Positions 21,315 to 57,700 of a stretch of 64,000 nucleotides of DNA are shown here, one piece after another. The notes under the pieces were generated by a model. That model was not told the origin of the DNA and did not search any database. It saw only the letters and a list, made by a program, of their open reading frames with translations. The stretch covers positions 1,002,391-1,066,390 of the forward strand of contig CAJNDT010000147.1 in assembly GCA_905221615.1 (NCBI GenBank), given 5' to 3'. A program made the position numbers and the translations under genes. Position 1 is the first letter of the stretch. Every line of letters starts with the position of its first letter. This stretch comes from Symbiodinium sp. CCMP2592. Taxonomy: Eukaryota; Sar; Dinophyceae; Suessiales; Symbiodiniaceae.

Positions 21315-21491
21315 ACGGTTGATGGTAAGAATCCTGCATTACCCATTATAAGGAATATACCATAATTCCCATAGTTCAGGGTCCTTAGGGTAATGCAGGA
21401 TTTGTATCATCAACCCTAAACCCTAAACCCTATAGATCCCATAAAGGAAGCCCTTAAAGGTATCCCTACAGATCCCTTTAAAGGAACCCGG
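21315..21491. mobile_element. Family F element joined by a telomere-like linker to a second module
   Basis: 21315-21415 is an F palindrome (CACGGTTGATGG to GTATCATCAACC). Then comes CCTAAACCCTAAACCC, then a module with AAGGAAGCCCTTAAAGGTAT and CCCTTTAAAGGAACCC. The terminal F arm found in the related composites at 35750 and 41948 is missing here. Confidence 0.82.
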
Positions 21492-21724
21492 TGTAGTAGT
21501 TCGCCTTCTAGGTTGTAGCCCAGTGGCGGCAGTCTTTACCCAAACCCAACCTTCGGGAAGCTAAGAAAAGACAGAACCTTAAAGCCTAAACTAGGTGCCC
21601 ATTTCAAGAATCCCCCAAACCGTTTAGAACTAAGGCTCCATTATAACTATGTTCAGCTATAAGACGAGCAATTACATAAAGCCCAAAATCCCTAAACCCC
21701 TAAGCCCTGAAGCCTAAACCCTAA

Positions 21725-21843
21725 AACATGTCCCACATTGATACCTAGGCCCAAAACCCCAAAACCTTTCCCAAATCGATACCCAGGCCGGAAACCCCGA
21801 AACATATCCCAAATCGATACCTACAGGCCCAAAACTCCAAAAC
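21725..21843. repeat. 38-40 bp tandem triplicate
   Basis: Three copies of a unit with ACATRTCCCA, ATYGATACC, AGGCC and AAAACYCC. The end of the array runs directly into the family I element at 21848. Confidence 0.8.
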
Positions 21844-21847
21844 ATAT

Positions 21848-21951
21848 GGGTGGTTGTCAAAATTATGGCACCTTTGTTGGGTACCCTAAGTACATTAGGT
21901 GCCGTACTATACTAGGGACCCAAAAAGGGACGCTAATTTTGACAACTACCC
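21848..21951. mobile_element. Palindromic element, family I
   Basis: GGGTGGTTGTCAAAATTATG to CTAATTTTGACAACTACCC; AT flanks both ends. Core includes GTACATTAGGTGCCGTACTA. Confidence 0.85.
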
Positions 21952-22059
21952 ATGCACCAATTTCACAGATAAACAACGCTTCCGGGCCCCAGGCGTAGGC
22001 CAACGAAGGCGGCCTCTCCGTTCGAACGCTCTGGGGGCCCTCTTTGAAGGTGTCCTCTC

Positions 22060-22500
22060 CATGGTTCTGTTTGGGGTTTTGGGGTTTAGGGTTTAGGGTT
22101 TATGGTGTCCTCTCCATGGCGTTTTAGGGCTTGGGGTTTCGGGTTTTGGGATTTGGGATTTAGGGTTCGGGGTTTAGGGTGTACTCTCTATGGGGTTTTG
22201 GGGTCGAGGGTTTGGGATTTGGATTTAGGGTTTTGGGGCTTTGGGGGTTTATGGTTTAGGGTTCAGGGGTTCAGGGTTTGGGGATTCAGGGTTTAGGGAT
22301 TCAGGTTTGGGGTTCAGGATTGAAGGCGTCAGGGTTGAGAGATTCAAGGCTTAGGGATTCAGGGTTGAGGGATGCAGGGTGTAGGGATTCAGGGTTGCGG
22401 GTTCCTAAACCCCACCTAAACTGTTTTGGAAGTTTGCGGGGTCGAGGTGTTGAGGGGTTTGGGCTTAGGGCTTGTCAAGGTTCAGGGTTTTCCGACCTAT
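22060..22500. repeat. Degenerate TTTAGGG-like filler
   Basis: GGGTTTAGGG, GGGTTCAGGG, GGGATTTGGG and similar words tile the stretch. Its forward translation is an endless Gly/Phe/Arg/Val/Trp pattern, which is the signature of the repeat rather than of a protein. Confidence 0.85.
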
Positions 22501-22685
22501 AGTAGGATCCTCGACAGCCCAAACATGATGAACATCAAAAAAATTCGGCGAAAAATGGCAAAGGTTTATGGGATTTGAGCTCAGGGTTCCGAGGCCTGGT
22601 GGGCTAGGGGTCTAGTATCTTGGGCTTGAGCTTCGGATCCCCCCACTCAGGTCCTCTTTAAAGTGGCAGTTTGGGGTTTAGGGTT

Positions 22686-22711
22686 AATTTTTTTGGACAA
22701 CTACCCGCACG
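22686..22711. mobile_element. Relic of a family I right arm
   Basis: TTTTTTGGACAACTACCCGC matches the family I right end (TTTTGACAACTACCC). No left arm nearby. Confidence 0.5.
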
Positions 22712-25300
22712 ATGTTGGGCTTGGGGTTTCATGCGAGAAATCCCGAACAGAGAGCTTCTCCAGGGCCCTCTATCTGCATTTTGATTTGGTCGGTGAGCTG
22801 GTTTTTGTTCGCCCGACGATTTGGGTCTTTGGAGTCTGGGTTTAGCTTTGAGGGTGAGGGTGTCTTCAAGGACTTGGAAGCATGGGATTTTGGGCTGAGG
22901 ATAGGGTGCCTGGGCTCAGATTTCTCGCTGTCGGGCCAAAAAGTGGCAGCTATACCCCACCGCGTAAACCCTGCGAGCCGCAAACCCTAGGCCCCAAAAC
23001 CATGAAGCCGAAAACTCCCCCCTAAACCCCAATACCCCAAAACCCTGAACCTGAAGATGTAAACCCAACACTGCGTCTTTTTCAAGACTGCTGGGCCACG
23101 CTCTCACTCTCGCAGGGGATGCTGCGCAAAACACGGCCGCAAGCATGCCCTTTGAGGGTAAAGGCACACAGCTGCTTGTTGGTGGGTTTTTGGCATCAGG
23201 GTTCAGGATTTTAGGGTTTGGGCTTGACTAGATTGCCTCGGAAATCTGGATTCTCTGATGTTGTCAAGAGGACTCTGCAATGCGTATCGAAGAGTTTGCA
23301 TACGCTTTCTGTCGTCTTCGGTTTAGCGTTTACCTCGGGATCTGGATTGTACCAACCTTGTCCAAACTACTCTTCTCCCTGCAAGCCCTGCGCCCAAGAC
23401 CCCAAAACACCACAAAAGGCCCGAACCCTACACCCCCTCAAACTGATAAAGCTCCCCACATCGAAAGTTTAGGGTCATAGCTGAAGCTTCTGTAGTGCCG
23501 GGCCTCGTCTAGGACTTAAGACAATAAGCTTTGACTCATAAACAAGACCTGATGCGATTTCGAACCCCGCAAACGCCAACGAAGAGGAGCTGCTTGGATT
23601 GCGAACCCCATAAATGCTGCAACTGGGACTTACTTGGCTTTCAAACAACCGAACAGGGTCGGATATCGGGCGTCCAATTTTTGGACGCTCACCGCCGTTT
23701 GCCTCCACCCTTCCTGCGCACAAGCTGCGGCGAGAGGACCTCCCTCTCTCAGGCTTAGCCCTCCCTGTCTAATGTACTCATGTAGTATATGCCTGTTAGG
23801 CCGTAAAGGACTTGCGACACAGGCACATTATTAAGGCCTAAGATATGCTTTGGAGCGTTTAGGGTATAGTGCCCGCTAAAGCCTTAATTGACCCCAAACC
23901 CTCATACCTTACACCCCCAAACCCCCAAACTCCTGAACCCCATAAACCCTTCGGGTTCAGGTGACAAAGGGAAACCCAATCCCCTGAAGGTTTCCTGCAG
24001 TATTCTATTCAGGATGTAGCGTGTAGTTGGCACCCACACCTGATGACTGGTTGTAACGTAAGGGCCCTTCATAGTTCTTAAAAAGTTTCTTCCCGTCATG
24101 GCGTGTGTTCTACTAGAAAGGGAATATTCCGAAACCTGAAAGGCAGTATTGCTATCTGCTGAGGACCCCATGCTAGTTGCGATATATTGCCCCCCCCCCC
24201 CGCCACAGGCCCGACGAAGATAAGTGCACCGGAAAGGACCAAATTCTGCTCGGGACTTTGGCCTACAGGATCAAGTTTCAGGTTTGTAGTTCTGGGTTTA
24301 AGGTATAAGAGGTCGAACCCTAAACCCTATAACCAAAGATCAAAGACTGTACAAACCATATTTCTGATGCCCTCGAGGTAAAGCTTCCCTCATCCAAGCC
24401 TGCGTAAAGCCCCGAAACAACCTACTGGGTTCTTCTTGTGAGTTCCTCACCACTTAGCCCCTGTAAGTTATATGGGTAGGTTGCTGATGGTTCGGGCAAG
24501 CCCAAGACCAAAGAATCCTGATGAAACCTCAACCCCAACACCTCAACCAGAACTCCCAACCTACAAGTCTTACACCAAAGAAACGTGCACAAATGCTCTG
24601 AGACCAGTGCTTGCCGCCACCACCTGCGGGGCAACTCAGGCCATAAGCGGTAAAAAACAAATTCTTCTGGGGATCCCTGGAGAAACCAAACAGATAATCA
24701 AGAACTGACTGAACCAAGAGCTACATGAAGTCATTTTCATAAATATGTGTGTATATATAGACAATGACATAAGCACAGATTGTGAGATATATATATATAT
24801 ATGTATATGTATATATGTATTTTTATTTAACATATGACATATTGATAATAAGGTAAATAACGTGCAAATACAAATATAACATAATATAATATAAAGAGTG
24901 AGTGAGTGTGGCTGGGTATTGTGAGGCCGCAGCAGGATCAGCCGTTGCTTCCGCCCGAAGGTTAAAGCGCAAAGCTGCAGGCCGGCTCCACACGAACGCC
25001 GTGCATCATGGCAAACCCGATGCACCCTTTACCATGACAGGGAGGACACTAGGCAAGCCCGCCACCTGCACCTCCTTGCAAAGGAAATTGCTAAGAAGGT
25101 CGGCATAAGGGCAAGACAGCATGCCATCCTCGATACCTCTGCCAGATCAAACGGCTCTTCCCGACTCAATCGCTCGCGACGGTACTGGGCCAGGTCTGGA
25201 CCGTCCCCGACAGGGCGCGGGGCTGCTGCCAAACATGCCTAGTGCTCTTCCCGTTGGATCCCTCCGCGGGTACTGGGCACCAAAGCAGCTCATCCTAATA
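22712..25300. other. No gene recognised
   Basis: Unique-looking sequence with occasional telomere-like words, a poly-C run at about 24191 and AT microsatellites at 24785-24825. Open frames are all under 130 codons and lack recognisable domains or conserved pattern. Confidence 0.5.
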
Positions 25301-25369
25301 TGGTATGATATGATATGATAGAATAGAACATATATAATATAGTATAATAGAATATACATGTATATATGC

Positions 25370-25400
<31 letters not shown>

Positions 25401-25415
25401 TGCTAGCCCCCCCCC
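25300..25415. repeat. ATATG/TA microsatellite and poly-C
   Basis: TATGATATGATATGATA, then ATATAATATAGTATAATAG, a TA run at 25375-25400 and a run of C at 25408-25416. Confidence 0.9.
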
Positions 25416-25429
25416 CCGAGGACCAACTT

Positions 25430-25985
25430 TGAATTGCCTAAATTCCTTAATTCCCGGCACCATGTGTTGGATTTAAGGAATTGCCTGATTCCCTAAATTG
25501 CCCAAGTTCCCTAAATCCCAGGCCCATGTGTTGGATTTGAGGAATTCCCTAAATTCTCTAAATCCCAGCCCCATGTGTTGGATTTAGGGACTTCCCTGAT
25601 TCCCTAAACTCCTTAAATTCCCTAAATTCCCTAAATTCTCTAAATTCCTTAAATTCTCTAAATTCCCTAATTCTGGCCCCCATGGATAAGATTCAATGGT
25701 TTCCGTTCATGGGGAGGGAATTTAGGGAATTTAGGGAATCAGGGAATTCCCTAAATCCAACACATGAGGCTGGGATTTAAGGAATTTAGGGAATTTAAGG
25801 AATTTAGGGAATTTAGGGAATTTAGGGAATTCAGGGAATTCCCTAAATCCAACACATGAGGCTGGGATTTAGGGAATTTAGGGAATTTAGGGGATTTAGG
25901 GAATGTAGGGAATCCAGGCTTGAGAACCAACACATGGGTCTGGGAATTAGGGAGTTTGAGCAAATTAGGGAATCTAGAAGAACTC
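25430..25985. repeat. Large hairpin built from GGAATTTA-type units
   Basis: The left half (to about 25680) carries CATGTGTTGGATTT at three places among TTCCCTAAA units. The right half (from about 25710) carries the complement AAATCCAACACATG twice, plus CCAACACATGG, among GGAATTTAGG units. The two halves form an imperfect inverted repeat with arms of roughly 250 bp, centred near 25700. Confidence 0.85.
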
Positions 25986-26319
25986 ACGCGTGTTGTAAAC
26001 TCAATGCAAGGAGGCAGTGATTAAGAAATTTAAGGACCTCGACGGCGCGGCATCGCCGTTTTGAGAAAACTGGGCAAGCTTCATTGCTTTCATATTAGGA
26101 TGATGGTTAAATGCTCCGGATATTGCTTGTGTTTAACATTGTTTGTTTCTAGTTCCGTTCATATATTATTTTGCTCAGAGGCATAACCCAAAGACGGGAC
26201 CAATACAGAAAGATGTGTGCATCCTACATCAGTTCGTAATAAGGTTGCATGTGTGCACATGTTCATTATTCATGAAGCTCTTAGGTCACTCATGCGCCAG
26301 TGAATACGCATGACTCATA

Positions 26320-28160
26320 CTAGTGCCAAAGCGAGGTAATACCAAGATGTCTATCCCTACGAATAAAGGCACATTCATAGTCAGTTTAGTCTTGTTCGTA
26401 ATACTCGTATTTAAAAAGATATTGATATTTATACGAACTTTGATACTATATATTAACATTAATACTCTTATGAGTATGAAGACTCATCGTAATTATAATG
26501 GTGAATTTAAAAAACTGATAGTATGAATATTAATGTTCGCAACAATACTGATAATCATGTTCATGTTAAGAACAATATTAAAATGCATAGCTAGTATGAC
26601 TGTTCATAATAATTGAATAATTGTTAATGCTCCTACGGATAATGATATGCATATCCGTAATGACGACTCTCAATACTAACACTATTAATTCTCTAGTACT
26701 CAAATTCATCTTAATATTAGCACTAAGGCTAATTCCGATGTTATAATAAAAATACTAACATATTGATGTTGGTGGCGCTTTAGCTAGTACGAACAGCAAC
26801 CTGAAGATGCATACTCCTGCGAGTACAAAAACAGTTTTATTCACAGTAATTTTATTCCTACTATTAGTATCTGCTACTAGTATTTACAAATAATACCAAT
26901 ACAAATTTTTGCATTGATATGATCATGAATCCTAATATTCTTACGACTACTAACTTGTATAGTAATATTAACACTAATATGAATACGAATGATCCTACGA
27001 ACACGAATAATCATATTCCTTTCTTCATATTCATTAGTATTAATACCATGATACATACTAATGCTAATATTCCTACGGATACTAATGCTCATGTTCTTAA
27101 AAGCTATTCTCAGTGCGAGTTACGACATTAATATTATGTTTATATCAATATTATTACTAAGATGAACACTAATACTTCGGCTAATACACACATGCGTACA
27201 GTAATACTAGTAAAAACCCTAGTGCTAATATCAAGATAGAAATATTATCACATGTTCATATCAATGCCAATATCACTATTGATATTAATATCAACACGAT
27301 TCATACATATACCACTACTACTCAACATACTGTTAGAATAAAGCACAAGACAATGTACGCATCAATATAGTAAAGTATCAATATTTTCATATACCAATAT
27401 ATATATTGTTATACTAACATACTAATATACTGATGTACTAACAGATGAATATGCTAATGTACTCAATACTAACATACTAATATATTTATATAGTATTATA
27501 CTAATATACTAAGACTAGACTAATAGACTACTGGACTAGTAGACTAATAGACTAATGGACTAATACACCAATAGACTAATAAACTAATATACCAATATAC
27601 TCATATACGAAAAATATACGAATATATTAATGAACTAATTATACTTATATACTAACATTTCAATATAAGAATATATTCATTTATTGGTGCACAAACATAC
27701 TGATTTTCGAGTATTAATATACGAAATGAATAATATATTAATACTGATTCAACTACTAAGACTAATTTTATGGCCAAGTCCAGGTCTAACACCAATACGA
27801 GTACTTTCACTTACTACCGACATATATTAAAACTGACGCACTAATACACATGTTCATATGACAAACTAACACTGACATTGACACTGACACCAGCATCAAC
27901 ACTAACAGTAACATTAATCAAACGAACAGTAATATTGAACAGATACCAGCAGTATTACTATTATTACTACTACTATTACTACTACTACTACTACTACTAC
28001 TACCAAAACTGATACTGACACAAAACAAATTCTAATACTAACACTAACAAAGATTTCGACAGATCACTATTCATCAGAATAGCAGTATTAAGATTCAAAC
28101 TAAGATCAAGAATAAGTCAAGACCAATATTGATATTATTATTAAGATTGAAACTAAGAAT
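26320..28160. repeat. AT-rich cryptic simple-sequence region
   Basis: About 1.8 kb dominated by ACTAATA, ATTAATA, ATATTAATATT and GACTAATAGACTAATAG words, with a (CTA)n run at about 27960-28005. It has no TTTAGGG words, in contrast to its surroundings. Similar short patches lie at 37875-37960, 51035-51130 and 63940-64000. No gene. Confidence 0.75.
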
Positions 28161-28474
28161 GAGACTACGGCAAGATGAAGACCGCTAATGAGGTAGTTTC
28201 TGTGTGCTCCTACCCGAGCAGATGTTTATATGCAGCGTGGGCTCTGAGATTAACATACAAGAAGAGAGAAGGGATGTATCATAAAATTTCACATAATAGC
28301 ACAATGAATAGAGACTGAAAAACTGAACCCTGTTTTTTTCCACTTCGACAAGACGCGCCGAGACGGTAAATAGTGTCCATGAACACCAAATCTATCGATA
28401 TTTGCAGGGGTTTCGGCTCGAATCCGGAACGGCGCCAATACAGACACGAGCAATCACATGGCCGAGGTTGGTCC

Positions 28475-28495
28475 TGGGGGGGGGGGGGGGTTACC

Positions 28496-28531
<36 letters not shown>

Positions 28532-28603
28532 AGAGAGAGAGAGACAGAGACAGAGAGAGAGAGAGAGAGATGTAGATATAGATATGTACATGCAGAGAGG
28601 GAA

Positions 28604-28648
<45 letters not shown>

Positions 28649-28705
28649 GAGAGAGAGAAACACACACACACACAGACAAACAAACAAACACACACACACA
28701 CACAA
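28475..28705. repeat. Compound microsatellite: poly-G, (TA)n, (GA)n, (CA)n
   Basis: Poly-G at 28478-28490, TA at 28496-28522, GA/GAGA at 28532-28658, then CACACA and CAAA runs. Several long frames cross it on both strands; all are simple-sequence artefacts. Confidence 0.95.
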
Positions 28706-29180
28706 TGTGAGCACACGCATGTATATGCACTCCCATAAAACGCTGGTTACGAAACATCGCTATCACCAAGCATCAACAAATCAACAAATCAATAACGCAC
28801 AATGATACTGATACCAATCCTACTGTACACAATACCGTCAAGATACTGCAGTCCTGAAGTGTCCGATGCCCGACGAATACGCCACAACTCAAAAACACCA
28901 CGCCTGAGCAATTTCCTCCAAAACTCAACTTCATAGCAGTCCTGTCTGACACCCTTCGAGGCACTTGTAGGAGCTAGAATCCTGAGCACATAGGCAGTGT
29001 ATCCAGCCTTTGCGGTTGCCGCCGCCCTTCTTGCCTGCAGACGTGAGTAGTTCTGCATTAAAGATACTGGTACAAGTTGGGTAACCCAAGTTCGGGTCAT
29101 CACTAAACCTCAAAGACCAAAGCCTCTGCTGGCATGGCTAAGAGAGCTCTGATCTTGCACGGTTCAGTGACGAAGCTTGC

Positions 29181-29234
29181 GCCTTCGGATTTTATCATGC
29201 TCATGGGCTCTTCGGATTTTATCATGCTCATGGG
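29181..29234. repeat. 27-bp direct duplication
   Basis: CTTCGGATTTTATCATGC plus TCATGGGC occurs twice back to back. No gene assigned. Confidence 0.85.
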
Positions 29235-29679
29235 CCTCATGGGCTGATGTAGAGGCCTCGATTAAGGGAATTGGGTGGGTTGGGGTAATTTCATCAGGAA
29301 AACGACATGAGGAGAACTGAACCCGGTCCCTAAGACCATGGATCCTAATTACACCCGAAGCCCGAAATCCTGAATTTTTGAACGAACATTCCTGAACGTT
29401 GCTTAGTTCTGAATTTCTTAACTTTGACGCAGCTTCTGGCAAAAACTTGTGGGTGGGCAGGCCTCCGCCACCACGGCCCTTTCCGCCAGGGCCGCCGCCT
29501 AAGAACGGAGGTGAAGGTTCGAAAAGTCAAAGTTTCAGTTAAACAGAGAGAGAGTGGTAACGCTGAATGTAAAGCCTCGACAGCAAGATCAGTAATGTTC
29601 GGCATTTGGCGCTTTAGGGCCTAGGGCTTTGTCGCCCTTACAGCTTCTAGAGCTTTATCCTCCCCCCCATACTTAAACC

Positions 29680-30068: not shown

Positions 30069-30249
30069 GGCGTTTCCGAGAATTAGGGGGTCTATAGAGG
30101 TTCCTTTAAAGGGGTACTATAAGGGTTCTATGACTGGTTTAGGGTTTAGAGCTTCCGAAAATTAGGGGTACCTTATTTTGGGGGCCTTCATAATAGGGAT
30201 CCTACTATTTAGGGTATTCTATTGGGGTCCCCTATTTTCGGAAACTCCC
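30069..30249. mobile_element. Composite family C element with its own target duplication
   Basis: Order: a C-type arm (GGCGTTTCCGAGAATTAGG), a module (GGTTCCTTTAAAGGGGTACT, then AAGGGTTCTATGA), a linker GTTTAGGGTTTAGA, then a full C palindrome (30150-30249). ATTTA flanks the whole unit (30064-30068, 30250-30254). The locus at 49211-49435 has the same parts in the reverse order and orientation. Confidence 0.85.
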
Positions 30250-30380
30250 ATTTAGGGGCTTAGGGAAAAAAAAGGGTTCACGGTTCGGGGCTCAAGGCTT
30301 CTAGGGTTTTGCAGGGCTTCTTTGGGGGGGTTCAGGGAAACAGGGTTCACGGTTCAGGGAGGCCTAGGGCTCATAAGGTT

Positions 30381-31711: not shown

Positions 31712-31718
31712 CCCGAAA

Positions 31719-35731: not shown

Positions 35732-35984
35732 CGTACCCCAAAGCCCAGTAGTACGGTTGATGATAAAAGCCCTGCATTACCCATAATAAGGAATATACCA
35801 TAAATCCATATAAATCCCATAAGTTAGGGTCCTTAAGGCAGTGCAGGATTTATATCATCAACCCTAAAGCCTAAACCCTATAGATCCCTTAAAGGAAGCC
35901 CTTAAAGGTATCCCTATAGGTCCCTTTAAAGGAACCCTAGGGATTTATATCATCACCAGTATGGTACCCCAAAGCCCAGTAGTA
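35732..35984. mobile_element. Composite family F element between 21-bp direct repeats
   Basis: 35750-35864 is an F palindrome, then CCTAAAGCCTAAACCC, then the module AAGGAAGCCCTTAAAGGTAT... CCCTTTAAAGGAACCC, then an F arm GATTTATATCATCACC. The whole is flanked by an exact 21-bp direct repeat starting GTACCCCAAAGCCC (35732-35752 and 35964-35984). Confidence 0.85.
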
Positions 35985-41947: not shown

Positions 41948-42159
41948 TAGGACTGATGATATAAACCCTGCATTACCTTAAGGACCCTAAATTATGAGAT
42001 TTATGGTATATTCATTATTTATGGGTAATGCAAGATTTATATCATCCTAAACCCTAAACCCCAAACCCTTAAAGGAGCCCCTTAAAGGTACTCTTATTAA
42101 TCCCTTTAAAGGAACCCTAGGGATTATGGGTAATGCAGGATTTATATCATCAGCCGTAG
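41948..42159. mobile_element. Composite family F element
   Basis: F palindrome (41948-42046), then CCTAAACCCTAAACCCC, then module (AAGGAGCCCCTTAAAGGTAC ... CCCTTTAAAGGAACCC), then GGGTAATGCAGGATT and TATATCATCAGCCGTAGG, a second complete right arm. The most complete example of this architecture. Confidence 0.88.
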
Positions 42160-45914: not shown

Positions 45915-47978
45915 CCACAACTTTAAACCCTAAACCTCAACCCTAAAGCCAAAACTTTAAACCCTAAACCTCAACCCTAAAGCCAAAACTTTAAACCCTA
46001 AACCTCAACCCTAAAGCCAAAACTTTAAACCCTAAACCTCAACCCTAAAGCCACAACTTTAAACCCTAAACCTCAACCCTAAAGCCAAAACTTTAAACCC
46101 TAAACCTCAACCCTAAAGCCAAAACTTTAAACCCTAAACCTCAACCCTAAAGCCAAAACTTTAAACCCTAAACCTCAACCCTAAAGCCACAACTTTAAAC
46201 CCTAAACCTCAACCCTAAAGCCAAACTTTAAACCCTAAACCTCAACCCTAAAGCCAAACTTTAAACCCTAAACCTCAACCCTAAAGCCAAAACTTTAAAC
46301 CCTAAACCTCAACCCTAAAGCCAAAAACCTTTAAACCCTAAACCTCAACCCTAAAGCCAAAACTTTAAACCCTAAACCTCAACCCTAAAGCCAAAACTTT
46401 AAACCCTAAACCTCTAAAGCCCAAAAACCCTAAACCTCTAAAGCCAAACTTTAAACCCTAAACCTCAAAAGCCAAAACTTTAAAGCCACAACTTTAAACC
46501 CTAAACCTCAACCCTAAAGCCAAAAACTTTAAACCCTAAACCTCAACCCTAAAGCCAAAACTTTAAACCCTAAACCTCAACCCTAAAGCCAAAACTTTAA
46601 ACCCTAAACCTCAACCCTAAAGCCAAAACTTTAAACCCTAAACCTCAACCCTAAAGCCACAACTTTAAACCCTAAACCTCAGCCCTAAAGCCAAAACTTT
46701 AAACCCTAAACCTCAACCCTAAAGCCAAACTTTAAACCCTAAACCTCAACCCTAAAGCCAAAACTTTAAACCCTAAACCTCAACCCTAAAGCCAAAACTT
46801 TAAACCCTAAACCTCAACCCTAAAGCCAAAACTTTAAACCCTAAACCTCAACCCTAAAGCCAAAACTTTAAACCCTAAACCTCAACCCTAAAGCCAAAAC
46901 TTTAAACCCTAAACCTCAACCCTAAAGCCAAAACTTTAAACCCTAAACCTCAACCCTAAAGCCAAAACTTTAAACCCTAAACCTCAACCCTAAAGCCACA
47001 ACTTTAAACCCTAAACCTCAACCCTAAAGCCAAAACTTTAAACCCTAAACCTCAACCCTAAAGCCAAAACTTTAAACCCTAAACCTCAACCCTAAAGCCA
47101 AAACTTTAAACCCTAAACCTTTAAACCCTAAACCTCAACCCTAAAGCCAAAACTTTAAACCCTAAACCTCAACCCTAAAGCCAAAACTTTAAACCCTAAA
47201 CCTCAACCCTAAAGCCAAAACTTTAAACCCTAAACCTCAACCCTAAAGCCACAACTTTAAACCCTAAACCTCAACCCTAAAGCCAAAACTTTAAACCCTA
47301 AACCTCAACCCTAAAGCCAAAACTTTAAACCCTAAACCTCAACCCTAAAGCCAAAACTTTAAACCCTAAACCTCAACCCTAAAGCCAAAACTTTAAACCC
47401 TAAACCTCAACCCTAAAGCCAAAACTTTAAACCCTAAACCTCAAAAGCCCTAAAGCCAAAACTTAAAGCCAAACTTTAAACCCTAAACCTCAACCCTAAA
47501 GCCAAAACTTTAAACCCTAAACCTCAACCCTAAAGCCACAACTTTAAACCCTAAACCTCAACCCTAAAGCCAAAACTTTAAACCCTAAACCTCAACCCTA
47601 AAGCCAAAACTTTAAACCCTAAACCTCAACCCTAAAGCCAAAACTTTAAACCCTAAACCTCAACCCTAAAGCCAAAACTTTAAACCCTAAACCTCAACCC
47701 TAAAGCCACAACTTTAAACCCTAAACCTCAACCCTAAAGCCACAACTTTAAACCCTAAACCTCAACCCTAAAGCCAAAACTTTAAACCCTAAACCTCAAC
47801 CCTAAAGCCAAAACTTTAAACCCTAAACCTCAACCCTAAAGCCACAACTTTAAACCCTAAACCTCAACCCTAAAGCCAAAACTTTAAACCCTAAACCTCA
47901 ACCCTAAAGCCAAAACTTTAAACCCTAAACCTCAACCCTAAAGCCAAAACTTTAAACCCTAAACCTCAACCCTAAAAC
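45915..47978. repeat. 34-bp telomere-derived satellite array, about 60 units
   Basis: Unit AACTTTAAACCCTAAACC plus TCAACCCTAAAGCCAA, 34 bp, running essentially unbroken for about 2.06 kb. Each unit contains CCCTAAA twice in altered phase. Variants: ACAACTTT instead of AAAACTTT at about 45919, 46053, 46188, 46487, 46657, 46997, 47250, 47536, 47708, 47742 and 47844; short units lacking an A at about 46222-46260 and 46725; two disordered patches at 46410-46500 and 47440-47475. No ORF. The array ends abruptly at unique sequence (ACACAGAAGAAGG). Confidence 0.97.
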
Positions 47979-48063
47979 ACAGAAGAAGGCCCCCGCCTCC
48001 GGGAGTTCGCCGTTCTTCGTGGGCTTGATAAATGCGGCCAGGGAAGAGGTGGCCTCTTGGGGT

Positions 48064-48700: not shown

Positions 48701-48708
48701 TGTGTTGT

Positions 48709-48954: not shown

Positions 48955-49030
48955 ACCCCTTAGACCCTAAACCCTAAACCCTAAACCAAAACCCCGAACC
49001 CTCAATCTCCAAACCCCAAAAACCACGAAA
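48955..49030. repeat. CCCTAAA-like filler
   Basis: Three CCCTAAA units, then degenerate CCGAACCCTC-type words. Confidence 0.75.
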
Positions 49031-49210
49031 CCGTATACTTTCAACCCCGGGGCCCTAATCCTAAATTCTACACCCTGAGTGTCTATATTTGTGTGAAGCC
49101 ATTGGTAGAGCCCCATAAGGAACCCCTAGAGAACTTAGAACTCTCTTCAAAACCTTAAAACAAAAGACCTCGTGCCTAACGTCTTCTCCCTGCACCCGCC
49201 GATTCTAAAT

Positions 49211-49435
49211 GGGGCTTCCCGAAAATGGGGGACCCTTATATAGCACCCTCAATAGTAGGATCCATATTACAAGGACACCAGAAAAAAGGTACCCCTCATT
49301 TTCGGAAACCCTAAACCCTAAACCATTCATAGAACCCTTATAGTACCCCTTTAAAGGAACCTCTATAGACCCCCTAGTAGGATCCTTATTCTAAGGGCCC
49401 CGAAAAAAGGGAACCCCTCATTTTCGGAAACTCCC
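49211..49435. mobile_element. Composite family C element with its own target duplication
   Basis: Full C palindrome (49211-49309), then AACCCTAAACCCTAAACC, then a module (TCATAGAACCCTTATAGTAC, CCCTTTAAAGGAACC), then the right half of another C element (GTAGGATCCTTATTC ... TTTTCGGAAACTCCC). AAAT flanks the whole (49207-49210, 49436-49439). Same parts as 30069-30249 in reverse order. Confidence 0.85.
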
Positions 49436-49589
49436 AAATCTAATTCGACCAGGAACCCGGGACCTGGCACCATCGATCAGTCGAACCTTCAGAACAGAAC
49501 CAGTCCCCAACCTTCGATCATAATACAGACAGCTCTGTAGTTAGAGTAGGGCTTGAAGGTATTGTATATGTATAAGTAGATGCAAAAAT

Positions 49590-49645
49590 AGAAATAAATC
49601 AATATATATATATATATATATACATATATACATACATATATTTCT
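49590..49645. repeat. (TA)n / (CATA)n microsatellite
   Basis: TATATATA then TACATATATACATACATA. Confidence 0.9.
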
Positions 49646-49666
49646 TTATTTACACAGTAGTCTAGC

Positions 49667-49722
49667 TGTAATAAGGGACCCTATGGAATAATGTTGGTAG
49701 TGCTCGGGCTTCTACAGTACAC
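49667..49722. mobile_element. Truncated family K element
   Basis: AGCTGTAATAAGGGACCC, GGAATAATGTTGGTAGTG, GGGCTTCTACAGTAC. Parallel to 33121-33182. Confidence 0.6.
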
Positions 49723-49814
49723 CGTCCTTTCCCTCGGCGAGGAGGCCCATCGTCACCCTTGCCCTTGCCTTTTCCTTTGCCTCCCGATCTTGCCAGGGCT
49801 TGCGGTTTGGTGTA

Positions 49815-49870
49815 GGGTTTAGGGAAGTTTAGGGTTTAGGGGTTTACGGGTTTAGGGTTTAGGGTTTAAG
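49815..49870. repeat. TTTAGGG tract
   Basis: About five TTTAGGG-type units with single-base variants. Confidence 0.8.
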
Positions 49871-50204
49871 GTTGAGGGTCAGGGCTTGCGATTTGGTGTA
49901 TAGGGTTTCGGCTTATCGAGGGTATGCGAGGGTGGAATTGTGGACAAGTCTCTGTAAAGAAATGGGTCCATGCATAAACATGGATAAACCCTGAAAAGTT
50001 TACAGCTCCCTGCATTCCCGACACTCATTCGGGGCCCAGGCGCTGTATGCTTATGCAGAACATAACATTCGGCATAACCGCTACGAAAATACTTGTCAGA
50101 CTCAGCATTCAAGCTCTACCCCTAAACTCGAGATGATTAGACTCGACAGCAAACGTCGTTGAACCTGAACCAGCCTTCTCTTGGGCTCCACGTGAACTGT
50201 TGGT

Positions 50205-50335
50205 ATACGCATCTATCTGTCTATCTGCCTACCTCTCTATCTCTCTATCTTTCTACGTGTCTCTTTATCTATCTATCTATCTACCTATCTATGTATCTAT
50301 CAATCTCTATCTATCAATCAGCCAACCTATCCGTA
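50205..50335. repeat. (CTAT)n tetranucleotide repeat
   Basis: CTATCTATC with CTAC, CTGT and CTCT interruptions. Confidence 0.9.
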
Positions 50336-50837
50336 CACCTCTATACCTCCTAAGCAGGGATCACACAAAACAAAAAAAACACAAGAGAGAAGAGGAATAG
50401 TAGGATCCAGAAACTCCGGCAAGGGGCCGCCAGTAGTAAGTAGCCTTCAGTCAGAATCGCCCACAACCCAACAAAGCACAGATTGGGCAGGGTTTAGGGC
50501 TTAGGGTGACACACTGTAGCTCCAAACGAACAGTTGCAAACCCTACACCGCCAGCTAAACACCCCCACCTCAAAAACAAAACCAACGAAAAAGACACCTC
50601 ACCATCAAACCAGCTCCTCCGCACAAGAAAAACACCTAAATCCAACCCGGATCCAATCCCTTAACACCAAAACTCTCAAGACTTAACCCTAAACCCTAAA
50701 CCCTCAACCCCCCTTAACGTTAAGACGGGGAAGGCCTTCCCCTTTGCCTTTCTTCGAGGACTGGTCTTGCGTGAAAGCATTGCTGGAGACCTCAAGGACC
50801 AGCTTTCCGCTCAATTCGGAGTGTACTGTACATGCCT

Positions 50838-50910
50838 ACATGGGCCTTATTTTGGGGCCCATTATACTATAGTTATAATAAGGAACCCCCCAGTAATAGT
50901 ATAAAGGTGA
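50838..50910. mobile_element. Element fragment, family N
   Basis: GGGCCTTATTTTGGGGCCCA, ATAGTTATAATAAGGAACCC, AGTATAA. A related copy at 63803-63863 shares the first word exactly. The words also match family C cores. Confidence 0.6.
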
Positions 50911-50929
50911 CGATTAATTAGGGCCCCTA

Positions 50930-51032
50930 CTTGGAGGTTCATGGGTACTTATAAGTGGGGTTATAAGTAAGGTAACTATACTTAGAACCTTTATTACGGC
51001 ACTAAACACTCTACTAAGCATGAACCTCCAAG
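50930..51032. mobile_element. Palindromic element, family D
   Basis: CTTGGAGGTTCATGGGTAC to AGCATGAACCTCCAAG, flanked by TA/TA (50928-50929, 51033-51034). It lies directly against the family N fragment. Confidence 0.88.
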
Positions 51033-51226
51033 TAAGAATAGTAAGAATAATGCTAATACTAATGCTGATGCTAATGCTTTAATACTTAATGCTATTTCGC
51101 ATACTACATACTAGTAAGAACAATACGAGTATATAAGGTTATGGGACTCATTTTGGAGCTAAGAATCAGGTTACGGACTATGTTCGACCAAAAGTTTGGG
51201 AATAATAGGATAGGATTTAAGATCAG

Positions 51227-51325
51227 GGTGACCCTTGGGGGACATAAACCATCTCAATAAGGTCCCTTTCAAGAGAGCCTGAAGTAGGGTTAGGAAGGTT
51301 CCCTTTTTAATACTTAAGAGGTCAC
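51227..51325. repeat. Weak inverted repeat
   Basis: CAGGGTGACCCTT near the left and AAGAGGTCACCCTAC near the right. The interior has AAGGTCCC and GGTTCCCTTTT words. May be a decayed element. Confidence 0.45.
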
Positions 51326-51399
51326 CCTACTAGCACGTAGGATAAGAGTAAGGTGATGGGGTATGCTCGACCCAAATTTAATTCGGCATATCCAGTCCC

Positions 51400-51998
51400 A
51401 GCCATTCAGACTCTAGACTAGGGCATCGGGTAGAGGGCTTCAGGGATTTCAGGGCCGTAGGGCTTCAGGGTCGTAGAGTTTTAAGCTATTGGGGTCTATA
51501 GGGCATTCAGAGATGGTTTCGGGTTGCGGATTATGGTCGTGATTTTTGGACCAAGACGTTGGGCCAAAGTGAAAGTCGAAACGCGAGGTCTGACCACTCA
51601 ACCCTTCAGTCTTGGCGCACCGAAGCTTAAAATCTCACGCTCCAGAGGTTTGGGTGCAGTTGAGAGCCTTCGACCTACACAGGTCGCTCCGGTTCGTCTT
51701 TGGCTGTTCTTTTGCCGTTTGCTGTCTTAATCTGTGTTCTTTATCAGGTGCTTGAAGGACCGAGCTTCGGTATCCTCGCACCCCTTAACCCTAAAATGCC
51801 TTCGGGCCTGTGTCTTCACGAAGGTGGTGGCGCTGTCGTCGACGAAGTCTTGCTTGGCAAACCTCTCAGGACCGGGGACAGGTTTCTAGAAGGGTTCCTA
51901 CAAGGTGTTCTATAAGGGTTCCAATAAGGCTTCAGGGTCCATGCGTCACTTCGTGGTGAAAGCTTTGATACGGATTGCATACGCTTCTTGAATGCCAT
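51400..51998. other. No gene recognised
   Basis: Unique sequence; short frames. AAGGGTTCCTACAAGG and ATAAGGGTTCCAATAAGG near 51889-51928 echo the module words of the composites. Confidence 0.45.
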
Positions 51999-52000
51999 TA

Positions 52001-52090
52001 CCCGGAGGCTCCATAGTAGTTCCTTTTTGTGATTACCTTATAGGGTTCTATATATGAACCCCAAAAAGGAACTACTTTGGAGCCTTAGGG
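52001..52090. mobile_element. Palindromic element, family E
   Basis: 90 bp, CCCGGAGGCTCCATAGTAG to CTACTTTGGAGCCTTAGGG, flanked by TA/TA (51999-52000, 52091-52092). Confidence 0.92.
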
Positions 52091-52215
52091 TATTGCGGTT
52101 GTGTACGGATTTGTAGGGCTTGTTGGAGTATGCGGGGCGGAGCTTCAAAAGGGCCCTGGGGCTCCGGGTGCAACATATGGATGCTTTGTGGGTACTTGGC
52201 TCTCCAGGTTGCGGT

Positions 52216-52326
52216 AACTTACAGTAGAAGCCAGAAAGTTGGAATATCATTATCGTAACCCCTTTAAGGTAAAATTATAGGGGGTCCTACCATTAATCCA
52301 TATTCCAACTTTCTGGCTTTTACTTT
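52216..52326. mobile_element. Palindromic element, family K
   Basis: CTTACAGTAGAAGCCAGAAAG to CTTTCTGGCTTTTACTTTAAAG, inner GTTGGAATAT/ATATTCCAAC. Perfect central arms. Confidence 0.85.
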
Positions 52327-52632
52327 AAAGAATCCCTTGCTGAACAAGGGCCCAGAGCAGTCTCCGGGCATGGATATCTGCTGGGGTCACATGGAAGTTT
52401 CAGAAAAGGTTTGGGCTACACCGCTCGCTAAACCCGAAAGCTCATCGGAATGACCTCCTAGCAGGGGTTGGCAGACTGCACATGGGTAGTTCTCCAAATT
52501 GAAGACAAATTTAGGAACCGAAAGAAGAATGCGGCACCCCTACGAAAAGAACCCTGAGAGAGACCATAATTGAGAGAACTACCGACGTGGCAAATTCTGA
52601 ATGTCTAGGTGGCTGTGAATAGATAGATCTAG

Positions 52633-52722
52633 CTCATGGTTGGGATAGGATTAATAATTTACATGTTATTCCTAATTGGGTTTAAGTACCCATAAAAATG
52701 TAAAATGTTACCCAACTATGAC
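52633..52722. mobile_element. Palindromic element, family W
   Basis: TCATGGTTGGGATAGG to GTTACCCAACTATGA, inner TTTACAT/ATGTAAA. Single copy. Confidence 0.65.
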
Positions 52723-54229
52723 AAAGAGATCATGTTGCAGACCCAACTGTCCTCAACCGTTTGTACAGCCAGTAACTAGTTAACTGTTAGACTCAATACT
52801 ACAATACAGTACTATGCATGGCTACCACTCACAGCAATAGTAGAATGCATTGCTAAACCCGAAACCCCACACCTCTAGAAATCAAGGTAGTTAAAACTCC
52901 AAACCCTAAAGCCCTACACCCTAAAGCAGTTGCCTGGGTCCTGCTTCCTCTCCGCCGGCTTTATCCGAGGTGCCTGTCATCGTTACTCGTCTCGGAACTG
53001 GAACTTTGGGCTTCAATGCTTCTGTTCTGGGCTTCGGGAAAGGGTGCTGCTAGGGAGTCTGAGATTGAGGCTTGCCTAAATAGAGATTTCAGTGTCGGTC
53101 CTAGGGTAATAATAAGCAGACTGCTGACTGCTTTCGAACAAGCAATTGATGGTGCTTCAGAGTTTTAGCTTCGCTTCGTGCTTCGGATGTCACGGTCTGG
53201 ATTGCACATTTCAGGGCTTCGGAAAGTTTAGCATTCGGCTCAGGAGCTCGGCTTTATTCGGGACGAGTCCGGGCTTGCGAAACTACGTTTGAGGGTTCCG
53301 ACGCCGCAGCCCCCTAAAATCTTCGCATCCAGAATCCATAAAATAACAATCCAAGGCTCCCTCACTGAACATCAAATGCCAATAAACATACATCAAACTA
53401 TCAAGCTCGCAAACCCAAAGCCAAATCGACCTTTCGGTGCTACAGAACGACAAAGATGCCTCAACGCTAGGAGACCACGAAGAACCCTTGTTATCCGACC
53501 TCAGCGCGCTAATCCCCTACTAGTTAGCATGCCCTGGACCCATAAAGACTTTTCGAAGCCACGCAACATCCAATGTCATGGATCAGCACACTTAAGCCCC
53601 CTTGCACCACAAAAAAGTCAGATGTTTGGATCCTTGCGCTGTGTTATCGTACAAATAGAAACAACAAAAACATGAAGAACATCACTGCTGAGCAACAAGA
53701 TCTGGGTTCAAGGCTCACAATGGTTCACATTTAAATTTAAGTCAGTGTATTTAGATGTTCAGATCTAGGGTCTCTGGTTCAGGTTTAGGTGTACTGTAGC
53801 GCGACAATAAACAAGGAACGCCGCCGAATAGCAGCAACCTTCAGTTCTCGTGTCCCGAAACCCTACGACTCATGGGAAACCATCGGATCAACTTTCGTGA
53901 AACCTCCTTGCCAAAAGCCTGAGAAGCCCCGGCACGCTAAGACGCCGATATGACATGGTCAGCTCTTGAAATTACCGTCCCATCTAAGGTTCTGAATAGC
54001 GCCTTCTGTCTGGCATGCAAAGAGAGACCTAGGGCGTGAAATGTAGGGGTTCAGGGTTCGGGGTTTAAGGGTTGGGGGTGTTGGACATATTTTGGGTTTG
54101 GGCTTAAGGGTGTAGGGGTTTCGGGTTTAGGGACCCCCTTGCAGAGAAGTAAAGCGGCGGGTGGGCTCACCACAGCCTTTCCCTTGCGCCACTCGGCGCG
54201 CTCCTGCAAAACAGTTGGAAAACTAATCC
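52723..54229. other. No gene recognised
   Basis: Sequence largely free of telomere-like words from about 52940 to 54020. The longest frame (plus strand 53289-53675, 128 codons, basic, Pro/Arg-rich) has no recognisable domain and is not called. TTTAGGG-like words return at 54050-54135. Confidence 0.5.
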
Positions 54230-54312
54230 TGGATAACCTACCGCTTTAAGGCGGCTTATAGCCAAATAATAATAAGGAACCCTGAAAAGGTAGGTCCTTT
54301 CGACTACAGGTA
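54230..54312. mobile_element. Family Q fragment
   Basis: AGGTAGGTCCTTTCGACTAC and ACAGGTAG match the family Q arm. The upstream TTATAGCC and ATAATAAGGAACCC are core words. Confidence 0.55.
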
Positions 54313-54992
54313 GAGAAGCCCCAGGTGTGGGTCTTGAGGAAGGTTTTAGGGGCTGTCGGATTTGAGATCGTCTTAAGCCAGGCTTATACGGTTCATGTAG
54401 GGCGCGGGGAATGTCAGTATTAAAATGTCGCACACTCAGAAGCAACTGGATTTTGGTTTTGGCTTATGAACTTGAAGCTTAGGAAACTGAAAGCCAAGCT
54501 TGTGCAGTCGAGGGTTCCGCGTGAAGGATTCCGGGGCCTAGTGTACTCTACACCTAGTACTCTACTCTTAGTCTTGGAAATCAAACTGACACGCTCGCAG
54601 CCGCTGGCACACTCCAACTCCGACAACGACTCCGAGTCAAGCGACTTCATCCTGAGGTGGTTTTCAAAAAGACAGCGCGGGCCGGCATACAAACGCACTG
54701 GTCACTGGTTCCATGTGTCTGCAAAATCTGACAGCCTCACGTTGGCTGGCGATGCGAGACGCTGAAACGCAACCACACTTAGACTTGTAATGCTTCATGT
54801 ACTGCGATGCGACACTATGAGAATCCGCCTCCGACAAGGACAGTTTTCCAGACGTCTTCGTCATCAGCCCGTCTTGGAGAAAGGCGCAGTCTCTCAGTCC
54901 ATCATGCAGCTCTTGCGCTTGCACCGATCGCACACGCTCGACCCTTTAGGCGGAGCTCCTTCATACGGCCTCGATTCGACAAACACCATATT

Positions 54993-55110
54993 TTGGGATG
55001 CCCAGTAACCTAGGAATAACAAGGGCTCCCTTTTTGGTATCCGGTAACTTTATATTTACAAGAAACCCAGGCCTACAAAAAGGCAATAAGGGTACTACTG
55101 GGCATCCTAG
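54993..55110. mobile_element. Palindromic element, family J
   Basis: GGGATGCCCAGTAACCTAGG to GTACTACTGGGCATCCTAG, flanked by TATT/TATT (54989-54992, 55111-55114). Confidence 0.88.
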
Positions 55111-55410
55111 TATTACATGAGGAATGGACTCGAGAACCCGGCTTTCAAACTTTGGCAAGCCCTGCCCGCGAAGGGCTAGAGCCTAACATTTGTTCTTAGT
55201 TTGGGGCTTCAGGTTTAGACCTTGGGGTTTATAAGGTTTAGAGTTTAGGGTTTAAGATTATGAACTTCTTAGGCTTAGAGTTTATGGTTTGAAGGCCTGC
55301 GTTCAGGGTTTAGTCCAAGGCGAGATCGCCAACCGGCCTTCGATCTGCCTAGGCATTGAAGGTGCGGAAATGCAGAACAGGGCGGCTTAGGTTCCGGTGC
55401 ACGATGTCTG

Positions 55411-55490
55411 GTAGTTTCCGAACATAATATGGGACCCTAATATAGTACCCTGAATAGTAGGAGCCTCATTATAAGGACCCCAAAATAAGG
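55411..55490. mobile_element. Family C element, right arm missing
   Basis: GTAGTTTCCGAACATAATATGG, GGGACCCTAATATAGTACCC, AATAGTAGGAGCC, TTATAAGGACCCCAAAATAAG, then an abrupt switch into GGGTTTAGG filler where the right arm should be. Confidence 0.75.
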
Positions 55491-55660
55491 GTTTAGGTTT
55501 GGGTTCACCATCCAGGATTTTGGGCTTTAGGGACTTATGTCTTAGGGTTGAGGATTTAGGGGTTCGAGGTTAGGCTTTAGGGTAGGGCCTTTAGGGTTTT
55601 GGATGTGGGGTTTAGGGTTTAGGGTGTTGGGTTTAGGGTGTAGGGTGTCTGCGTAGCCTA
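55491..55660. repeat. TTTAGGG-like filler
   Basis: GGGTTTAGGGTTTAGGGTG and variants, starting exactly at the truncated end of the C element. Confidence 0.8.
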
Positions 55661-56229
55661 GGCCGGGGCCTCTAACTCCAACGCAACATCCCTACTGCTT
55701 CGGGTTCGGGCTAGTTAGCCCTAGATCATAAGTCTTTGCAAAATGAGATGATTAGCTGAAAAAGTCTCCTTCATCGCATCCCGAGCCTTAAAAATCACGA
55801 GCTTACATAGACTGGCCTTTCCGACTCTACCTATCTGCGGGCTTTCAAGCATCACCTGTCCATTTCCCCCACTCATTAAGGCTCGCCAGCTCTCTATCAT
55901 CCGTTCCGTGAATCCGTAAATCTGAAATCCGGCAGCCATGAAACCCGAATCCCAAAACCTTTGACCCTGAAATAGGGCCCTAACACCCGAAACCGCAACT
56001 CCAAAATCAGGGAAAGTGCTCCTCCTCCATGTTCTTCCGATGCGACGTACCCCGGGGAGCCTTTTGGCTGTAGGCCGACTGCTCTTGTTCTTATACCATG
56101 ACTCAGGCTAGTGTAGTCCTGTGTCTGCGTATGTATGTGTATACATATATATATATAAATCATATGCTATCTTGCTTTGTGTAAACCGTTGTTACGGATA
56201 GCAGCAATGGTGGCAGTACTACCATAATG

Positions 56230-56465
56230 ATACCAATATGAGCAGTAGCAGTAGCAGTGGCAGTAGTAGGAGTAGGAGTAGGAGTAGGAGTAGGAGTAGG
56301 AGTAGGAGTAGGGGTAGGGGTAGGGGTAGGGGTAGGGGTAGGGGTAGGGGTAGGGGTAGGGGTAGGGGTAGGGGTAGGGGTAGGGGTAGGGGTAGGGGCA
56401 GGGGCAGGGGTAGGGGTAGGGGTAGGGGTAGGAGGAGGAGGAGGAGGAGGAGCAGCAGGTGGTCG
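56230..56465. repeat. (TAGGGG)n / (TAGGAG)n hexanucleotide array
   Basis: GTAGGAGTAGGAGTAGGGG through about 35 hexamer units, followed by GGAGGAGGA and CGTCGTCG triplets and a GATGACGATGACG patch (56480-56515). Frames in all phases are open because the period is six. Confidence 0.95.
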
Positions 56466-57093
56466 TCGCCGTCGTCGCATGATGATCGATGACGATGACG
56501 ACGATGATGGTGATGATGTTTGTTATTAGTAGTTTGTAGGAGGTGTTCTGGGTATTTTTCAAGCTCAAGCTAACAGGGAATCTACTGCAGACTTCTGTGT
56601 GTAACAGATACTGAAGCACTCAAAACAGTGAGCCTTACGTGGGTCGAAGTCCACCCATCGAGGAGCACCCTCGCCTGGCACCACCCACAGCTGCGTTGTT
56701 TGGCCTTTGTATATATGTTATGTGCTCGGAGCAACTACTTGTCTACTTGATTTTATAGGATAGTAATAGTAGTAGTAGTGTAGTGTAGGAAGGTGCGAGG
56801 ATACGGCTATTATAGGTACTTGGGCCCTCGCGGTTTGCGTCTGGGGCAGGAAACTTGAGGATTTAGGGTAAGGTTTGGGCGGTTTAGGTTTCAGGCTTCA
56901 GTTATTTTCAAGCTCGAAGATGAAAGGAAAGCTGCACCGCTCAAGTCAGGCAGTGGTAGTAGTAGCAGCAGTAGTAGCAGTATCAACAGCACCAGCAGTA
57001 GCAATAGCATGAGCATTAGCATTGGCACTAGGACAAGTCGGGCTTTGGTTCGGGGTTCACGGCTTCAGGTTTCGGCACGGATCGGCCTTAAAG
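56466..57093. other. No gene recognised
   Basis: Trinucleotide patches (AGTAGTAGTAG at 56763-56780 and 56950-57010) in otherwise unique sequence. Confidence 0.5.
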
Positions 57094-57188
57094 ATCCCTT
57101 AACTAAGGAATATACCATAACTGTTAATAGGATCCCTAAAATGATTTATGCTATCTCCTTAATTAAGGGATTTTGGAAGGTCTGGGGA
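57094..57188. mobile_element. Family B element, left tip missing
   Basis: ATCCCTTAACTAAGGAATATACC ... CCTTAATTAAGGG, then ATTTTGGAAGGTCTGGG at the right. The left CCCAGACCTTCC is absent. Confidence 0.75.
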
Positions 57189-57299
57189 GATGAGCAGAAG
57201 TGGCAAGCCGCAATTTTGACACGTCTGGTCTGCGAAGTCTGTGCGAACACATCGAGCCACCGATCCCCACTCCAGGTTTAGGGCTCCGGGTTCCGGGTT

Positions 57300-57335
57300 C
57301 AAAGGGCTTAGGGTTTAGGGTTTAGGGTTTAGGTG
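57300..57335. repeat. (TTTAGGG)n tract
   Basis: Four TTTAGGG units. Confidence 0.88.
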
Positions 57336-57529
57336 GTTGCTTAGGGGTAGGAATATGACGTCTATCGTCAGTGCTTGGAATGCTTTTCACCACACAGGCT
57401 TGGGGTTCATGTTCGGGCTTTTAGTGGTGCAGGGAACTAAAATTTCCGCACTGTAAGTGCTGCAACAAAATTCTCAGCAAGGTTCTGAATGCTGCTAGTA
57501 TAAAGATGTCTATTAAATAACGCCCCCTA

Positions 57530-57700
57530 CTCGGAGGTTCATGGGTAGTTGTAAGTGGGGTTATAAGTAAGGTAACTATACCTACAACCCCTAGCAGGGG
57601 ACTTGTAACCCGACTTATAGCTACCCATGAACCTCCAGGCCCTAAACCCTCTACCCTTATAGAATCCCTATAGATCCTTTTAAAGGGACCATTGGAGGAA
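57530..57700. mobile_element. Family D element joined by a CCCTAAA linker to a module
   Basis: D palindrome (CTCGGAGGTTCATGGGTAG to AGCTACCCATGAACCTCC), then CCCTAAACCCTC, then ACCCTTATAGAATCCCTA and TCCTTTTAAAGGGACC, which are module words also present in the C and F composites. No closing D arm. Confidence 0.75.

Follow-up and report, generated by a model that had tools for sequence, protein, structure and literature searches.

Short hairpin elements of several arm families carry a one-sided telomere-like word module in a Symbiodinium genome

Results

Six composites in one window

We analyzed a 64,000-nucleotide stretch of the Symbiodinium sp. CCMP2592 genome (assembly GCA_905221615.1, contig CAJNDT010000147.1, positions 1,002,391 to 1,066,390 of the forward strand), hereafter the window. 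At six places it carries a composite in which a short hairpin-shaped element (arm1-loop-arm2') is followed on one side by a telomere-type linker and a module of CCCT-words containing the word CCCTTTAAAGGAACC or a diverged form of it (Table 1). The original prediction, made from the letters alone, had described this succession of parts at each of the six places, and we confirmed all six. It had also placed a closing arm of the element's own family at four of them, and such an arm is present at 35750, 41948, 30069 and 49211 and was not detected at 21315 and 57530. The module word is exact in five of the six, the one at 57676 reading CCTTTTAAAGGGACC. When CCCTTTAAAGGAACCNNTANNG was searched with up to three mismatches, the window gave 9 matches against 0.10 expected from 100 shuffles; all 9 fall at the six composites, three of which were matched on both strands. 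Telomere-type units are likewise present at all six, but the first unit at 35864 is CTAAAGCC rather than CTAAACCC, and the linker at 57639 consists of a single clean unit (CCCTAAACCC), the next being TCTACCC.

Table 1. Parts of the six composites, numbered by position within the window
Feature	Positions	Strand
F-family two-armed palindrome (arm1-loop-arm2'), third arm not detected	21316..21415	+
Telomere-type linker CTAAACCCTAAACCCT	21416..21431	+
CCCT-word module, ends in CCCTTTAAAGGAACC (21474-21488)	21432..21488	+
C-family two-armed palindrome	30149..30250	-
Linker TAAACCCTAAACC	30136..30148	-
Module, CCCTTTAAAGGAACC at 30099-30113	30085..30135	-
Third C arm (AATTCTCGGAAACGCC)	30069..30084	-
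F-family two-armed palindrome, TA immediately outside left end	35754..35863	+
Linker CTAAAGCCTAAACCC	35864..35878	+
Module, word at 35922-35936	35879..35936	+
Third F arm GGATTTATATCATCACCAG, TA immediately outside right end	35941..35959	+
F-family two-armed palindrome	41950..42046	+
Linker CTAAACCCTAAACCCC	42047..42062	+
Module, word at 42102-42116	42063..42116	+
Third F arm with inner stem	42123..42156	+
C-family element, diverged first arm GGGGCTTCCCGAAAAT	49211..49309	+
Linker CCTAAACCCTAAA	49310..49322	+
Module, word at 49347-49361	49323..49379	+
Third arm, repeating part of the C loop and the 3' stem	49380..49436	+
D1-family two-armed palindrome	57533..57636	+
Single telomere-type unit	57639..57651	+
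Module, diverged word CCTTTTAAAGGGACC (57676-57690), third arm not detected	57652..57690	+

The layout recurs with fixed polarity

The host genome (1.098 Gb across 5,383 contigs) holds 16,458 exact copies of CCCTTTAAAGGAACC, against 4 for a backwards-read control. With five copies, the window exceeds the genome mean (about one per 64 kb) roughly fivefold. We examined 88 module sites, 73 from the window and loci L001-L068 and 15 more from L069-L082. The loci come from the first 100 listed places of the exact-word search (contigs C1-C11), a non-random draw; the 14 arm queries were composed after the first loci had been examined, and L069-L082 were retrieved later as a check. L005-L008 were excluded as repeats of L004, words at most 130 bp apart counted as one site, and the diverged word at 57676 lies outside the 88. 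Because module loci were located by the exact word, composites without it are under-counted; two such composites of family I were found, at L015 and L024. A further survey covered 264 kb, made up of the window and the 10-kb loci and thus partly centered on modules.

At 51 of the 88 sites, the 115 bp upstream of the module contain an arm in arm2' orientation (random positions, 9.2%), and a two-armed element stands upstream at 34 (random, 5.5%). On the other side, a third arm of the same family follows within 90 bp at 25/88 sites, compared with 0.5% at random. Polarity is fixed, with downstream arms in arm2' orientation at 34/88 sites (random, 6.4%) and in the opposite orientation at 3/88 (random, 6.7%). 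The 15 later sites gave a similar picture, with an arm directly upstream at 11 and a same-family arm downstream at 7, one of them at 94 bp. Across the 264 kb, 17 of 87 two-armed elements have an outward-pointing module word on one side and none on both, and a third arm was detected in 9. An early ungapped test, which was too weak, scored direct repeats (score at least 13) at 32/74 sites against 28/300 random positions, inverted repeats at 14/74 against 18/300 and an upstream palindrome at 24/74 against 34/300. The excess of CCCTTTAAAGGAACCNNTANNG over shuffles and of arms over random positions led us to reject chance adjacency; the layout had been called hard to explain by chance insertions beside telomere-like filler, and its recurrence at many loci and in several families bears this out.

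Modules also occur in tandem: at 9/88 sites another exact word lies within 130 bp. The spacing is 58 bp at L004 and 70 bp at L033, to which no arm family was assigned, while L077 consists of two units of module plus D arm. In the window, at 10382-10592, two C elements lie head to tail a few bases apart.

Arm families differ at their ends and are related in their cores

The two-armed elements fall into 14 arm families. In the 11 families with at least three copies of 80-150 bp the consensus measures 94-123 bp, so that short length is combined with terminal inverted repeats (TIRs), as in miniature inverted-repeat transposable elements (MITEs). The composite layout is found in families C (arm TGGGAGTTTCCGAAAAT), F (CGGTTGATGATATAAATCC), D (TACTTGGAGGATCATGGG), D1 (GGAGGTTCATGGGTAG), G (TAATGTAGGAACCTGATTAAG) and I (TAATATAGGGGCCTTAATAATTAG), and at one or two loci each in T (L010), K (L030), E (L038, L039) and N (L057). 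By eye, E and K have a truncated inner arm and have kept the outer pair. The families had been said to have unrelated ends, which is true of the arms only. Once the outer 24 bases are removed, the consensus cores of C and T, C and G, and D and D1 clearly beat all 300 dinucleotide shuffles, and those of C and E and of E and F do so narrowly (91 pairs compared).

Within single copies of family C, arm2' and arm3' resemble each other more (0.847) than do arm1 and arm2' (0.720; 7 triples). The junctions of this family form several classes, some of which recur at separate loci: CTCCCATAACCCTAAACCCTAAACCC at L016, L017 and, with one change, L012; AACTCTAAACCCTTATAGAG at L040, L072 and, with one change, L024; CTCCCATATGGAGCCC at L081 and L082; and the pair in the window.

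The linker goes with the module

The dinoflagellate telomere repeat is reported as (TTTAGGG)n (PMC11453091, PMC11508785). In the window, CCCTAAACCCTAAA is matched 134 times when up to one mismatch is allowed (0.13 expected), which makes telomere-like words common filler there. As to the orientation of the linker relative to the module, it never varied: CCCTAAA occurs within 60 bp upstream of the module and on its strand at 29/88 sites (27 of the first 73 and 2 of the later 15, armless sites included), and TTTAGGG at 0/88. Judged by eye on the G strand, the heptads run in register with the module's GGG, and the element side of the join varies.

The linker was found at 22 of the 51 arm-flanked sites (C 12/19, D 3/5, D1 1/1, F 5/6, N 1/2) and at none of those in G (0/5), I (0/12) or T (0/1). 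Seven of the 19 C sites and two of the five D sites also lack it, and the layout there is unchanged. The telomere-type linker is thus not the factor common to the families, nor is it what defines the layout.

When it is split at every CCCT, the module consists mainly of CCCTAAA, CCCTATAGAT, CCCTTATAGNN, CCCTTATAGTAA and CCCTTTAAAGGAA. Six of the 37 sites without a recognized arm sit among CCCTAAA-type words, and the linker together with the module is best regarded as a single stretch of telomere-variant-like minisatellite. The vocabulary is common to the families; a shared order was not demonstrated when words were permuted in ten family pairs with the last words fixed. Only the I-D order was rare (9/500), in a test with little or no power for short modules, G-I permuting two words and the pairs with C three. 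Modules of different families score highly against one another in a comparison that overstates homology, as it used three hand-typed consensus sequences and shuffles that keep dinucleotides and not words; in the permutation analysis the G-I score was 41.5. The loop of family G is itself AAGGAACCCTAATAAAGG, the word that ends the module.

Composite forms have spread to different places

No two of 39 composites are alike on both flanks, which rejects a single segmental duplication with shared flanks as their common source. Where flanks match on one side, the match seems to come from telomere-like words or from copies of other repeats. Several types of junction are found at two or more loci, so composite forms have spread, as the original prediction had it; the stitching from which it derived them may have occurred but need not be invoked.

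The dinucleotide TA stands at the left and right ends, respectively, of 9/10 and 10/10 elements in F, 7/8 and 7/8 in D, 6/8 and 7/8 in H, 5/7 and 5/7 in G, and 9/14 and 9/14 in I; both outer ends are TA in 7/16 composites. A 21-bp direct repeat, GTACCCCAAAGCCCAGTAGTA, lies on both sides of one F composite (35733-35753 and 35964-35984), the sole such case among 107 elements. When flanks were joined, 18/139 matched a continuous stretch elsewhere. The 11 of these that we examined include nested insertions, of T into the loop of G at L003 and L012 and of H into I at L014, and most of the others match telomere-like or module-like words. A separate joined-flank test for recreated telomere words gave 3 against 1.2 expected. 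Copies are therefore dispersed and have related empty sites, as in MITEs, the empty sites coming from simple elements and not from composites. In both cases the T element occupies nearly the same position in the G loop (L003:1617-1721 and L012:3401-3468), reflecting either the spread of a shared nested unit or a target preference.

Other features of the window and loci

A large tandem array with a 34-bp unit, CCAAAACTTTAAACCCTAAACCTCAACCCTAAAG, and also a 102-bp period occupies 45915-47976, and 46001-48000 has a GC skew of -0.83, a strong strand asymmetry. At 25429-25913 a minisatellite has units of the AATTCCCTAAATT type in long inverted repeats (81 bp at 93%). Searches of the window with Rfam and for tRNAs gave 0 matches, as did a module scan of viral contigs. 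Pfam searches of ten stop-free open reading frames (ORFs) revealed no transposase, a partner for the elements not having been sought genome-wide; eight ORFs had no match, one had three kinase-like matches below cut-off and one matched PF06024 above it. A stop-free ORF of 634 residues at L015:3079-4980 (minus strand) has proteins of named Symbiodinium species as its eleven best matches (57-76% identity), which places the host among the Symbiodiniaceae dinoflagellates, and no Pfam match. L026:1-4600 and L022:1-2430 have no stop in any frame and hardly any sequence complexity, being either runs of N or simple repeats.

Discussion

How the three-armed forms may have arisen

We tentatively favor, while stopping short of calling it probable, an origin by repeated template-switch capture of CCCT-word arrays by hairpin elements, followed by spread. 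The elements would be non-autonomous and MITE-like, with TIRs and a hairpin shape, and a minority of them bear a one-sided extension. The extension consists of CCCT-words (CCCTAAA, CCCTATAGAT, CCCTTATAGNN, CCCTTTAAAGGAA) in a short array, after which the 3' stem of the element itself is often repeated. During copying of an element, or repair of its excision gap, synthesis may have left the element end, copied a piece of telomere-like CCCT-word minisatellite and re-entered the inner 3' stem of the element by way of brief identities like AAGGAACCC or ACCCTA, as seen by eye. Such a switch would have happened several times, each three-armed form then being copied onward to other places, presumably by a transposase that would take the outer arms 1 and 3 as ends. 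Tandem slippage of the unit of array plus 3' stem could have produced the local arrays at L004 and L077. We prefer a template switch because it explains why the third copy is half an element, why it starts near the inner 3' stem and why, by eye, short words are shared at re-entry. As C and D have several junction classes, with and without linker, there was probably more than one founding event.

Several observations weigh against this explanation. Decay of the arm2 ends alongside intact arm3 ends was expected, yet ends with at most one mismatch in six are found in 33/34 arm1, 25/34 arm2 and 11/17 arm3 copies, so that arm3 is no better kept. Family I shows only weakly (0.631 vs 0.593) the likeness of arm2' to arm3' observed in C, and in G, F and T the relation is reversed (two or three triples each). 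Polarity fixed in several families exceeds what simple capture predicts, unless matching words force it. A recognized upstream arm is missing at 37/88 sites, and an arm in the opposite orientation lies within 115 bp upstream at 18/88 (random, 9.3%), which we tentatively take to be arm1 of short elements; in the 264 kb, 3 of 87 two-armed elements have a module word pointing towards them. On 200 element sides, CCCTAAA-type words point outward 8 times (4 with a module) and inward 6 times, and this lack of a one-way linker at element ends indicates that the linker goes with the module rather than with the element. TA is weak at the left and right ends of C (6/21, 9/21) and E (3/10, 2/10) and absent from the assumed place in T (0/16) and N (0/3). 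No target-site duplication (TSD) rises above shuffled flanks (3 bp, 30/107 vs about 22).

The strongest rival is common ancestry, a real possibility that we nonetheless doubt. The three-armed form with its module would be ancestral to a superfamily whose arms diverged while core, module and layout were inherited, and two-armed forms would be deletions through recombination between the direct repeats arm2' and arm3'. The related cores (C-T, C-G and D-D1 clearly, C-E and E-F narrowly) speak for it, as do identical polarity and layout in at least six families and the high module scores between families, obtained from hand-made consensus sequences. Its weak point is the order of words between families, which was undemonstrated by a permutation low-powered for short modules. 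The several junction classes of C, with and without linker, also argue against it, and so does the predominance of two-armed over three-armed forms in the 264 kb.

It seems unlikely that one machinery serves all arm families, with the module, always on one side and in one orientation, acting as a functional signal that they share for replication, for the choice of ends or for binding of a transposase. The elements would then be alternative-end transposons, in which arm1 pairs with arm2' in a short form or with arm3' in a long one.

Telomerase or telomere-template repair, as originally suggested, would have stitched broken elements; a broken module end would have been capped with TTTAGGG before it was joined to an element end. 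The exact heptads of the dinoflagellate telomere repeat (reported in PMC11453091 and PMC11508785), their single orientation relative to the module (29 vs 0 of 88 sites, free modules included) and, by eye, heptads in phase with the module GGG next to a variable element side all fit such stitching. However, 29 of 51 arm-flanked sites have no linker, among them all those in G, I and T, so the linker is not the common factor, and it never exceeds two units in the six window composites. Module words keep CCCT phase in any case, and modules without arms lie among CCCTAAA-type words (6/88), so that capture of an array predicts the same things. Because linker and module form one continuous array that is also found free, telomerase need not have acted; we regard stitching as possible and quite unlikely.

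We consider very unlikely a satellite-first origin, in which tandem units of CCCT-array plus stem, such as those at L004, were the source and hairpins were born at array ends by inverted duplication: tandem units do occur at L004, L033, L042, L052, L054 and L077, but 87 two-armed elements stand against few arrays in 264 kb, and simple elements show nested insertions. Least probable is a compound transposon, formed when two same-family copies inserted in one CCCT-array and their outer ends carried the piece off, since, even though these arrays are TA-rich and several families have TA ends, a whole same-family element follows downstream at none of the 51 sites that have an arm upstream, which rejects two whole insertions into one array, and the third copy is half an element in the composites examined.

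An architecture of fixed polarity that joins several hairpin families to telomere-like words, with thousands of such words in the genome, offers a natural experiment on DNA capture by mobile elements and on the spread of interstitial telomere-like sequence through large dinoflagellate genomes. Should the module prove functional, a superfamily of transposons would share it as a control element; if one machinery serves all families, telomere-variant repeats would have been recruited as part of such a superfamily.

Comparison with known systems

MITEs with a TA target are Stowaway or Tc1-mariner-like. The elements described here are similarly short, hairpin-shaped and dispersed, with TA ends in F, D, H, G and I, but differ in the third arm and in a one-sided CCCT-word module common to several arm families. 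Interstitial telomeric sequences are CCCTAAA heptads away from chromosome ends; here too heptads lie off the ends, but with a constant orientation and in association with a module and an arm. Foldback elements have inverted repeats with further repeats inside or beside the arms, a feature shared by our elements, which are far shorter and asymmetric, with a one-sided extension. Tm1 is presented as an element of the foldback type (PMC3169594).

Among the matches listed for open-licence PubMed Central articles, none was recognizable, from title and start of abstract, as an account of dinoflagellate TIR elements with three arms and a telomere-like module. Work on dinoflagellate introners by Roy et al. 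(Curr Biol, 2023), summarized in PMC11453091, may treat some of these elements. The introners described for Symbiodinium microadriaticum have TIRs, 4-bp TSDs and a length of 115 bp in the example given, and are spliced (PMC9860276). They come from the same algal group and resemble our elements in size and in their TIRs. Our elements, in contrast, show no 4-bp excess (exact 4-bp direct repeats at 6/107 vs about 7.6 from shuffled pairs), and the account of introners, as far as it concerns these features, describes neither module nor third arm (PMC9860276). In Porphyromonas gingivalis, a MITE is reported to hold a minisatellite (PMC4596501), again a TIR element with tandem words. While that minisatellite is described as lying inside one MITE, in Symbiodinium a single vocabulary is attached to several families and lies outside the inner palindrome.

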